Positions 3,953-17,198 of a DNA stretch of 33,239 nucleotides are shown here, in pieces. Made by a program: the position numbers and the translations under genes. Source of the DNA: Desulfuromonadales bacterium (GTDB taxonomy: Bacteria > Desulfobacterota > Desulfuromonadia > Desulfuromonadales > UBA2197). The stretch spans positions 1 to 33,239 of the forward strand of contig JACUTW010000023.1 in NCBI GenBank assembly GCA_014859605.1, given 5' to 3'. Numbering within the stretch: position 1 is the stretch's first letter; each line of letters opens with the position of its first letter. Below the pieces are notes generated by a model, which saw only the letters and a program-made list of their open reading frames with translations, was not told the DNA's origin and did no database searches.

Positions 3953-3969
3953 TGGCACAACCAATGCAA
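3953..3969 (+). promoter_or_regulatory. Sigma-54 promoter of nifB
   Basis: TGGCACAACCAATGCAA has an exact -24 TGGCAC, GG-N10-GC spacing (GG 3954-3955, GC 3966-3967) and a -12 ATGCA. The predicted start of transcription is near 3979, two bases before the first ANTAR-type hairpin. Confidence 0.8.
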
Positions 3970-3980
3970 TAACCTCAGTC

Positions 3981-4054
3981 AGTACAAAGATGTACTCGAC
4001 AATCAGAATACGGCAACGACGCCCCGACGGTTATGCACCGTGCGGGGATTTTTT
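3981..4054 (+). promoter_or_regulatory. ANTAR-type antiterminator/terminator leader of nifB
   Basis: Hairpin P1 is AGTAC-[AAAGAT]-GTACT (3981-3996). After a 15-base linker comes P2, GGC-[AACGAC]-GCC (4012-4023). Both loops have six bases with A at position 1 and G at position 4, as in RNAs bound by ANTAR proteins. The right arm of P2 overlaps the left arm of a terminator: CCCCG+ACGGT (4022-4031) pairs with ACCGT+CGGGG (4037-4047, one bulged G), followed by six T. P2 and the terminator cannot form together. The P2 stem has only 3 bp and would need protein for stability. Confidence 0.78.
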
Positions 4055-4078
4055 GTTCCGTTCGTTACTCACCAGCAA

Positions 4079-4114
4079 GGGCGCTTTGCGGATTTTCCGC
4101 AAGCGCCCCTTTTT
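4079..4114 (+). terminator. Second terminator-like hairpin in the nifB leader
   Basis: GGGCGCTT(T)GCGGA (4079-4092) pairs with TCCGCAAGCGCCC (4096-4108), with one bulged T and a three-T loop, followed by five T (4110-4114). It lies 25 bases beyond the first terminator and just ahead of the nifB ribosome site. No separate hexaloop hairpin was found for it. Confidence 0.7.
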
Positions 4115-4134
4115 GTCCCAGCGAGGAGGTTCCC

Positions 4135-5004
4135 ATGGCTTCAGCCTGCCCGATGATGAAAAAGCAGCTCAGCGATCATCCCTGTTTCGGCGGCGATCAT
4201 ACCGCTAACGGTCGCATCCATCTCCCCGTCGCCCCCGGCTGCAACATCAAGTGCGGCTTCTGCGAGCGCAAGTTCGACTGTGCCAACGAAAGCCGTCCCG
4301 GCGTCACCAGCCGTATCCTTTCGCCCCAGGAAGGGCTGGAGCGGGTCAATCTCGTCCTCCGTCACCCGACGGTCGGGCCGAAGCTCAAGGTCGTCGGTAT
4401 CGCCGGCCCCGGCGATCCCCTCGCCAACCCCCGCACCTTCGAGACCTTCCGCCTGATCAAGGCGGCGCATCCAAACATGACCCTCTGTCTGTCGACCAAC
4501 GGCCTGCTGCTGCCGGAGAAGTTGCCGGAGCTGGTCGATCTCGATCTGCACAGTCTGACCGTGACCGTCAACGCCCTGACCCCGGAGGTCGGCGCCCAGG
4601 TCTATGAGTGGATCAACTATCAGGGGAAACGTTACGATGGTATCGAAGGGGCGAAGATCCTCCTCGAAAAACAGCTCGCCGGCATCGAGGCCGCGGCCCA
4701 GACCGGGCTCCTCATCAAGATCAATCATGTCTACATCCCCGGCGTCAACGATCACGAAACCTTTGAGCTCGCCGTCAAAATGCGGCAGCTCGGGGCGACG
4801 ATGATGAATATCATCCCGGTCATCCCCATCGGCCGCTTTGCCGGCTGGGAAGAGCCGTCGCCGGCGGTGATGGAGCTGGTCCGCAACCAGGCCGAATCGA
4901 TCCTCTCCCAGGCGCGCCACTGCAAACAGTGCCGTGCCGATGCCGTCGGGATGATCGGTCAGGATCTCGATCTGGCGACCCTCGAAGCGCGGTCGGCCCG
5001 CTAA
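4135..5004 (+). CDS. nifB: NifB, radical SAM NifB-co synthase
   Basis: The 289-residue enzyme joins two Fe-S units with a carbide and sulfide to form NifB-co, the precursor of all nitrogenase cofactors. The SAM-cluster motif is C36-NIK-C40-GF-C43, inside the NifB signature RIHLPVAPGCNIKCGFC, followed by FDCANESRPGVTS. HPCF at 15-18 and the C-terminal HCKQCRADAVG supply further conserved Cys. It is the short form without a NifX domain; two NifX-family proteins are encoded just upstream. The ATG at 4135 follows a GAGGAGG ribosome site and gives the normal N-terminus; an earlier in-frame ATG at 4033 lies inside the first terminator. Expression is predicted to need sigma-54 and antitermination. 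Confidence 0.97.
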   Translation: MASACPMMKKQLSDHPCFGGDHTANGRIHLPVAPGCNIKCGFCERKFDCANESRPGVTSRILSPQEGLERVNLVLRHPTVGPKLKVVGIAGPGDPLANPRTFETFRLIKAAHPNMTLCLSTNGLLLPEKLPELVDLDLHSLTVTVNALTPEVGAQVYEWINYQGKRYDGIEGAKILLEKQLAGIEAAAQTGLLIKINHVYIPGVNDHETFELAVKMRQLGATMMNIIPVIPIGRFAGWEEPSPAVMELVRNQAESILSQARHCKQCRADAVGMIGQDLDLATLEARSAR

Positions 5005-9827: not shown

Positions 9828-10391
9828 TCAGCTTTCCATGAGGAGGATGGCCTCGGCGACTTCTTTCAGGGATTTGCGCTTGTCCATCGCCAGTTTCTGC
9901 ATCTTGCGATAGGCTTCGTTCTCGCTCATCCCCTTCTTGATCAGCAGCCCCTTGGCCTTGTCGATGAGTTTACGCGTCTCCAGGGTTTCGCGCAGAGTCG
10001 AGACCTCTTCGCGCAGCGAGTGGAGTTCGACAAACTGGTGGATGGCGAGATCGACGGCCGCCAGCATCTGCTCGTCACGAAAGGGCTTGACAACATAACT
10101 GAGGATACCGCTGAGGCGGGCGCGTTCGATCGTTTCGAGATCGGTGGCGCCGGTCATCAGGACCATCGGCGTCGAAAACTTTTTGTTGATCTGGTCGCAG
10201 GCCGACAGTCCGTCAAGTTCGGGCATGGTGTAATCGATAACGATGAGGAGCGGTTCGAGCTTGAGGGCGAGGGTGACGGCTTCGCGACCATTCGCCGCTT
10301 CGATAATCTGGTCGAATCCATAACGTTCCAGGACATCACGGACCTGACGACGCAGCAACGGTTCGTCATCGGCAATCAGAGCGGTCTTCAT
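9828..10391 (-). CDS. ANTAR-domain response regulator (GnfR/NasT-like antiterminator)
   Basis: The 187-residue protein has a receiver domain (1-120) with acidic pocket D8-D9, phosphoacceptor Asp53 in VIDYTMPELDG and a Lys in YVVKPF. A coiled linker (LHSLREEVSTLRETLETRK) leads to an ANTAR RNA-binding domain (about 140-187, KLIDKAKGLLIKKGMSENEAYRKMQKLAMDKRKSLKEVAEAIL). ANTAR proteins bind paired hexaloop hairpins and prevent termination. GnfR in Geobacter sulfurreducens does this for nif genes. Four matching leaders occur in this window, so this is their probable reader. It is the first gene of an operon with draT and draG, under a sigma-54 promoter without an attenuator. Confidence 0.92.
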   Translation of the reverse strand: MKTALIADDEPLLRRQVRDVLERYGFDQIIEAANGREAVTLALKLEPLLIVIDYTMPELDGLSACDQINKKFSTPMVLMTGATDLETIERARLSGILSYVVKPFRDEQMLAAVDLAIHQFVELHSLREEVSTLRETLETRKLIDKAKGLLIKKGMSENEAYRKMQKLAMDKRKSLKEVAEAILLMES

Positions 10392-13390: not shown

Positions 13391-14971
13391 CTAATATTTA
13401 TTCAATCTTTTGGTGGGGAGAGTCACTCTGACCGTGGTGCCGCTGGCGCTGTCAGAGTCGATTTCGATCGTCCCCTGGTGTTCGAGGATGATGTGGCGGC
13501 AGACGTAAAGGCCGAGACCGGTCCCTTCGCCATCGGCCTTGGTGGTAAAGAAGGGGTCGAAGATCCGTTCGCGCACCCCGGGAGGAATGCCCGGCCCGTT
13601 GTCGTGCAGCAGAATCTCGACGTAGTTCTCGGTTGTGGTCCGCGTCGTCAGGGTCAACGTCCCCTTTGTCCCCATCGCCTGCACCGCGTTCATCACCAAA
13701 TTGATCAGCACCTGTTTGAGGCGGTTGGCGTCGGCTTCGACCAGAGGGATCTCACCGTACTCTTCGCGTAGCTCGATACTGTGGCGCAGAATCTCGAACC
13801 GGAGCAGGCGCAGAATGTCGGCGAGGAGGTCGTTGAGGTCGATCGCCACAAAGTTTTCATCCTGCGGCCGCGAAAAGGAGAGGAGGCTGCCGGTGAGTCC
13901 CTTGAGTCGTTCGGTCTCGCCGGCGATGCGGGCGATGATCTCCTGCTGAAAGTCGGAGATCGGTTCTTCCCGCTGCAAAAGTTGCGCGGCGTAAGCGATG
14001 ATCGCCAATGGGTTATTGACTTCGTGCGCCAGGGCGGCGGTGAGGCGGCCGACTTCGGCGAGCTTCTCCATATGCACGGTCTGATCAAGGAGTTGGCGAA
14101 ATTCGGTAATATCCTCAACGATGACGACAACACCGATGGTTTCGTCACCCTCCTTGAGCGGGGTGATGCGGCGCTTTTCAAAGCGGGTGGTGCCGCTCAG
14201 GTCGCGGTGGCTGAGCTGGAGCTTTTCACTGCGCCCGGTGGTGAGGACCCGCTGCAGGCGCTCGTCGAAATCTTCATCGCGCAGGGCCGGAAAGAGGGTG
14301 AAGAGCTGGCGGCCAACTGCGGTTTCGGCACTGTCGCCACTGATCTCGGCCATGCGCCGGTTCCAGGCGGTGATGGTCAGGTCGGCATCGAGGGCATAGA
14401 TACCGAGGCTGGCGCTGTTGAGGATCCGTTCGTTAAGGTGGTGCAGGCGCTGGTAGCGCTCTGAGCCCTGGCGGAGCTTGTCGTAGAGGCGGGCATTTTC
14501 GATGGCGATTGCCGCCTGGCCGGCGAGGGCAAGGAGGGGTTCGATATCCGCCGCACTAAAGGCGTCGGGGCGCGGGCTCTCGACGTTAAAGACGCCGATG
14601 AGATGATCGCGCACCAGCATCGGCACGGCAAGTTCGCTGCGGGCGCCGGCAATGCCGGGGAAGTAGTCCGCTTCGCTGCGGAGATCGTTGATCAGCAGCG
14701 GCTGACGGCTGCGGGCGACACGTCCCATGATCCCCTGGCCGACCGGCAGCGGCGGTGATGTCACCTCGGCCGGATAGCCGTAGGAAGTGACGGTGCTCAG
14801 GGTTGCTCCCTCGCTATCGAGGAGGCGGATAATGGCATTCTCAAAGCCGAAAATATCCCGTGAGACCTGAAGGATGCGATCGAGGAGTTCGGGGAGATCG
14901 ACGGTCGAGGCGAGATCCTGACCGATATTGAGCAGGGCATTGAGGAGTTTTTCCCGGGATGTGGCAGTCAT
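13391..14971 (-). CDS. GAF-PAS sensor histidine kinase (NtrB/GnfK/GnfL-like)
   Basis: The 526-residue soluble kinase has a GAF domain (about 20-165), a PAS domain (about 185-295, [25 protein letters not shown]), a HisKA helix with His316 in [21 protein letters not shown], and an ATPase domain with [19 protein letters not shown] and [14 protein letters not shown]. No membrane segment is visible, so it should sense a cytoplasmic signal. ATG at 14971 is chosen because GGAGAG lies before it; ATG at 14989 would sit within that site. It has its own sigma-54 promoter. No response regulator adjoins it; the nearest is the ANTAR regulator 3 kb downstream, its most likely partner. Confidence 0.92.
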
Positions 14972-15012
14972 GTGTGAAGCTCTCTCCACTCAAGGGGTTG
15001 GCTTACACATTC

Positions 15013-17091: not shown

Positions 17092-17161
17092 CAAAAAAGA
17101 AAAGCCCCATGATCGAAAGATCACGGGGCGACGTTGCCAGGGGTCCGGCGACGGTGCCGGA
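17092..17161 (-). promoter_or_regulatory. ANTAR-type antiterminator/terminator leader of nifV
   Basis: On the minus strand P1 is TCCGGC-[ACCGTC]-GCCGGA (17161-17144). After a 5-base linker comes P2, GGC-[AACGTC]-GCC (17138-17127). Both hexaloops have A1 and G4. The right arm of P2 is shared with the terminator GCCCCGTGATC/GATCATGGGGC (17129-17119 and 17114-17104, 11 bp, four-base loop), followed by TTTTCTTTTTT. This is the clearest of the four leaders. Confidence 0.85.
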
Positions 17162-17182
17162 AGTCAGGTTGATTATTTCTTT

Positions 17183-17198
17183 AGCACAGGCTGTGCCA
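17183..17198 (-). promoter_or_regulatory. Sigma-54 promoter of nifV
   Basis: The minus strand reads TGGCACAGCCTGTGCT: GG (17197-17196), ten bases, GC (17185-17184). The core GCACAG-G-CTGTGC is itself a palindrome. The predicted start is near 17172, eleven bases before P1. Confidence 0.8.

Follow-up and report, generated by a model that had tools for sequence, protein, structure and literature searches.

The nifB leader of a Desulfuromonadales bacterium carries two predicted terminators in tandem, each overlapped by an ANTAR-type hexaloop hairpin

The closest described systems are the EutV-type leaders of Enterococcus faecalis (eutP and others; Ramesh 2012, PMC3369931; Walshe 2022, PMC8934654), which have two hairpins with A1 and G4 in a six-base loop, the second of them over an intrinsic terminator, and an ANTAR-domain response regulator. 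It was reported that ANTAR dimers bind single hexaloops in succession, and that lengthening of the P1-P2 linker abolished antitermination in EutV (PMC8934654). In Pelobacter carbinolicus, a nitrogenase regulon was predicted in which three nif-related transcription units carry ANTAR RNAs (PMC3369931, Figure 9B). This regulon shares the bacterial group and the kind of gene with the leader described here; the main text of PMC3369931 is silent on tandem terminators and on a third hexaloop. In Desulfotomaculum acetoxidans, a member of another phylum, at least 13 ANTAR systems in six transcription units were reported (PMC3369931), so that there, too, the average unit has several ANTAR attenuators; the main text is silent on a tandem placement within one leader.

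The window analysed here (33,239 nt) is the entire contig C113 of a 2.76-Mb Desulfuromonadales genome. Its nifB leader resembles the EutV-type leaders in the two A1/G4 hexaloop hairpins, in the position of the second hairpin over a terminator and in the presence of an ANTAR response regulator (Table 1). In contrast to them, it belongs to nif genes, follows a sigma-54 promoter, has a P1-P2 linker of 15 nt (5-12 nt in eut) and possesses an additional hexaloop, the third, which overlaps a second terminator. That nif genes of this bacterial group are under ANTAR control is already published; the predicted tandem P3/T2 arrangement is the new part. In the literature that could be searched, which comprised main texts and few subscription papers, no such third hexaloop on a second terminator was found described. 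The GnfK/GnfR two-component antiterminator of Geobacter sulfurreducens (Ueki and Lovley, 2010) reportedly acts on a subset of nif genes with leader terminators, and may share this kind of control with the present locus.

Table 1. Features of the nifB leader and of related loci in the window (hairpin loops in square brackets)
Feature	Position	Strand	Remarks
nifB leader	3953-4134	+	from the promoter up to nifB
Sigma-54 promoter TGGCACAACCAATGCA	3953-3968	+	GG 3954-3955, GC 3966-3967; predicted +1 at 3979
P1, putative recruitment hairpin AGTAC[AAAGAT]GTACT	3981-3996	+	pattern count and covariation across relatives
P2, putative antiterminator hairpin GGC[AACGAC]GCC	4012-4023	+	over T1 left arm; stem invariant in 24 leaders
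Terminator T1	4022-4054	+	hairpin 4022-4047, T6 4049-4054; -15.4 kcal/mol
P3, hexaloop hairpin AGC[AAGGGC]GCT	4074-4085	+	A1 and G4 in loop; overlaps T2 left arm
Terminator T2	4079-4114	+	hairpin 4079-4108, T5 4110-4114; -22.7 kcal/mol
Ribosome binding site GAGGAGG	4123-4129	+	
nifB	4135-5004	+	289 aa; radical SAM domain only
ANTAR response regulator	9828-10391	-	Response_reg and ANTAR domains; beside DraT and DraG genes
nifV leader	17096-17198	-	sigma-54 box 17198-17183; one terminator

For comparison, nifB leaders were taken in the coding direction from 116 searched relatives, in 72 of which nifB was detected, and from additional genomes belonging to the same class. After removal of paralogues and one truncated leader, 94 were kept. 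Families are the groupings of the search tool, and part of the genomes are incomplete. Terminators were called thermodynamically, and the transcription start is a predicted one. A covariance model spanning P1-P2-T1 (R1) was run over the genome. A close relative, Desulfuromonadaceae bacterium UBA5613 (L062), also carries the locus described here.

The promoter, P1, P2 and T1 of a preliminary description, made from the DNA alone, were all found in place. The window has four matches to the strict sigma-54 pattern where 0.31 would be expected, and the same box also precedes P1 in 34 other nifB leaders. The P1 pattern GTACNNNGNNGTAC was found once (0.01 expected), and in the aligned relatives 99% of the P1 cells are paired, with base changes that compensate each other. 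Since the computed fold has an A-U pair closing the loop of P1, it is the comparison with relatives, and not the fold, that supports a hexaloop there. The placement of the start two bases before P1, to which the same description had drawn attention, holds in the genus of the window and in some others, but is not general, the distance ranging from 1 to 55 nt among relatives. P1 and P2 have stems of at least 3 bp and six-base loops with A1 and G4, both in the window and in the aligned relatives. For the two hairpins together, pairing reaches 99.5% of cells, and the 21 both-side changes all lie in P1. P2 and T1 share two bases, 4022-4023. The model R1 scored 63 bits over P1-P2-T1, and the whole leader folds at z = -5.2 relative to shuffles. 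A search of Rfam at gathering score (riboswitches, T-box and others) gave no match anywhere in the window. It was also observed that position 1 of the P1 loop is G instead of A in five leaders (G010, G030, G048, G061 and G079, with loops such as GACGAG and GATGGC), which suggests that a purine, and not specifically A, may be enough at this position.

The second strong terminator predicted before the ribosome site was confirmed: T2 by itself folds at z = -5.4, and among the aligned P3/T2 units its pairing holds in 96% of cells, both-side changes number 23 and the covariation is 0.379 (0.179 after shuffling). The preliminary description had further stated that no hexaloop pair is visible for this terminator, which proved wrong; its puzzle over how T2 is passed arose because P3 had been overlooked. 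The loop and right arm of P3 coincide with the left arm of T2 over 4079-4085, parallel to the position of P2 over T1. What is absent is a second P1, since none was found by eye in 4055-4073 of the window; P3, whose loop is spaced 62 nt from that of P2, has no P1 of its own. The stem of P3 has 3 bp in the window, and across the leaders two of its pairs are invariant and the third is paired in 27 of 28; the covariation of P3 itself is weak. All 36 T2-bearing leaders, a set that includes some leaders with a single terminator of the P3/T2 type, have G4 in the loop and GC in the 5' arm, and position 1 is A in 94% of them and otherwise G. Because the GC arm lies outside the T2 pairing in the window and in most leaders, its conservation is not explained by T2. 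A control set was formed by 188 ordinary terminators of these loci, and in 9 of them (4.8%) the left arm is overlapped by an A1/G4 hexaloop whose stem has 3 bp or more. A chance overlap as the origin of P3 was rejected on the strength of this control set together with the leaders that keep P3 after the loss of T2.

Within the class, P2/T1 followed by P3/T2 was found in about 30 of the 94 nifB leaders, spread over 13-14 families and two orders; the leader of the cultured relative Malonomonas rubra DSM 5091 (L091) is an example. The automatic tally gave 33 such leaders from 14 families, of which one belongs to another order of the class; ∼30 is the safer figure, because T1 was counted from a weak fold alone in three members of genus g33. 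Single P2/T1 leaders that the tally had misfiled under P3/T2 (G009, G031, G109 and others) were not counted as tandem. Three kinds of variant point the same way, namely to P3 being more than a chance feature. In G063, P1 is followed 26 nt on by P3/T2, which occupies the place of P2/T1. In five g33 genomes the strong T1 is gone and the P2 stem is changed but still pairing (GAC/GTC), followed by P3/T2. Nine leaders, which are related and do not represent nine independent events, retain P3 after T2 loss (G029, G087, G089, G095, G104 and G115, from L141, L140, L133, L060, L127 and L132; G127, G127b and G134, from L275, L276 and L279). Their ten core positions are invariant, conservation being 1.78 bits per site compared with 0.58 for the flanking bases, and P3 lies at -41 to -47 relative to the start codon; some of them have a longer stem and the loop AAAGGT replacing AARGGC.

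Several leaders depart from these layouts. The nifB leader of G133 (L274) has the P3 hairpin twice, as AAGC[AAAGGC]GCTT, ahead of one T2-like hairpin. In another order, the nifB leaders of L256, L257 and L263 lack any P1, and their P2 with its terminator comes only a few bases after the predicted start; these might be single-hexaloop attenuators. The G218 leader, also of another order, appeared to have the same composition when read by eye, and such P1-less leaders suggest that a lone hexaloop may suffice. Matches of a second model, R2, in other orders lie mostly away from nifB, and a match on contig C71 of the window's own genome (26 bits) was read as a terminator after another gene.

The response regulator in the window carries the only ANTAR domain found in the genome, and its gene lies 6 kb from nifB. 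Aligned with EutV (6wsh; numbering counted by hand from M172), it keeps R142, K143, K147, E160, Y164, M172 and R175, while N173 is replaced by D; in EutV these residues reportedly touch the loop or hold it in place (PMC8934654). Leader and regulator co-occur: of 118 relatives, 70 have both, 3 the leader alone, 17 the regulator alone and 28 neither (p = 2.6e-12, uncorrected for ancestry). Two of the three leader-only genomes hold partial ANTAR genes, and the 17 regulator-only genomes are those with no leader match at the threshold used. This regulator is the probable ligand of P1, P2 and P3. Regulation of the GnfK/GnfR type pairs a response regulator of ANTAR output with a histidine kinase that responds to nitrogen; a GAF-PAS histidine kinase gene lies in the same window (13391-14989, minus strand).

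At 25 bits or more, R1 also matched the nifH leader on C146 (60 bits), the nifV leader (25.6 bits) and a leader of a small gene at 7982-7920 on the minus strand (25.2 bits); the match at the glnK leader was weak (11.4 bits). In the nifV leader, the hairpins are P1 TCCGGC[ACCGTC]GCCGGA and P2 GGC[AACGTC]GCC. The nifH leader (C146:20416-20617; about 1455-1702 in L153) is a double attenuator, a layout common to many relatives. Its first stage consists of P1 GACAC[AAGGTG]GTGTC and P2 GGC[AACGAA]GCC with T1, and its second of P3 GGGC[AATGCC]GCCC with T2; between T1 and P3 stands a hairpin whose loop has five bases, GCGACTCC[ATGGC]GGAGTCGC. The nifH leaders of relatives (e.g. L209, L212 and L214) often add a conserved, terminator-less hexaloop, CATC[AACGGG]GATG, followed by CCGCC, about 67-99 nt upstream of the nifH start codon.

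Taken together, the nifB leader is quite probably a two-stage ANTAR antitermination switch, in which T1 would be opened at P2 and T2 at P3. RNA polymerase with sigma-54 would initiate at the predicted start. In the presence of fixed nitrogen the ANTAR regulator would be inactive, so that transcription would stop at T1 and any leak-through would be caught at T2. When nitrogen is limiting, P1 would recruit the regulator as a phosphorylated dimer, which would hold P2 and so keep T1 open; the same dimer or a second one would then hold P3 and keep T2 open, and nifB would be transcribed. The comparison of sequences shows the two terminators, the three hairpins with their conservation, and the joint presence of leader and regulator. 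How the events are ordered, the nature of the nitrogen signal, and the binding and phosphorylation of the regulator are inferred, following the model of Walshe and colleagues, in which a dimer occupies one hexaloop at a time and passes from P1 to P2. The earlier proposals of ANTAR antitermination at T1 and of a tandem off-switch are well supported by the comparison, and two terminators would give a concrete reason why cofactor synthesis could stay tightly off under ammonium. As for a hand-over between hairpins, the spacing of the P2 and P3 loops argues against a tight one, while the g33 leaders, with P2 and no strong T1, argue for it.

The 3-bp stem of P3, its weak covariation, the missing P1, the 17 regulator-only genomes and, in view of the linker effect in EutV, the 62-nt loop spacing were weighed against the two-stage reading. 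The first and third of these would also fit an arrangement in which the regulator opens T1 alone and T2 is an unregulated terminator that damps expression through a fixed leak, the hexaloop being a by-product of the T2 sequence. The strength of T2 agrees with this, and the P3 loop is partly forced by the T2 pairing. But the 5' GC arm and A1 are conserved although T2 pairing does not involve them in the window and the majority of leaders, P3 persists without T2, and such loops are rare in ordinary terminators, which makes this explanation unlikely. The persistence of P3 without T2 suggests in turn that P3 may have another role, and is a point against the two-stage reading as well. The regulator might act at P3 near the ribosome site and alter the translation or stability of nifB mRNA, with T2 being secondary. 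The persistence of the T2-less P3 at -41 to -47 in nine leaders and the terminator-less hexaloop ahead of nifH are in line with such a role, as are the mycobacterial ANTAR-type stem-loops over ribosome sites that are cited in PMC8934654. Nevertheless, P3 overlaps a strong, covarying terminator in the window and in most relatives, and we regard a post-transcriptional role as less likely still.

The preliminary description had held that T2 must be passed by processive antitermination or by an unknown factor. Polymerase made resistant to termination after T1 is possible in principle, and P3 without its own P1 would allow it; nothing else speaks for it specifically. No processive antitermination element was recognised, Rfam gave no match, and T2 has its own conserved hexaloop, so that no extra factor is needed; the proposal was therefore unsupported and seems very improbable. 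Attenuation by a leader peptide was also judged unlikely, as the spacing of the elements varies by non-multiples of three.

The two-stage reading might be extended, tentatively, to the nif leaders of the class as hexaloop relays, in which the dimer would move from P1 to P2 to P3 as the hairpins emerge, clearing a terminator at each step. The protein would then act both on elongation and afterwards, through the hexaloop that some lineages later kept ahead of nifB with no terminator and through the terminator-less one ahead of nifH. Walshe and colleagues predicted ANTAR sites made of a single hexaloop, for which the terminator-less hexaloops are candidates. The tandem switch offers a natural test of whether one dimer travels from hairpin to hairpin, for which the relatives provide variants with P1 and P3 only, with P2 but no strong terminator, with P3 but no T2, and with a single terminator.

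Two further leaders in the window have related elements. The small gene (7886-7643, minus strand), which stands in front of the nif regulator genes, is preceded at 8051-7920 by a sigma-54-like box and a single-terminator leader of ANTAR-like form. The glnK leader (13303-13138, minus strand) has a sigma-54 box, the hexaloops TGAC[AACGGC]GTCA and GGGC[AAAGGC]GCCC, and a long imperfect terminator-like stem.
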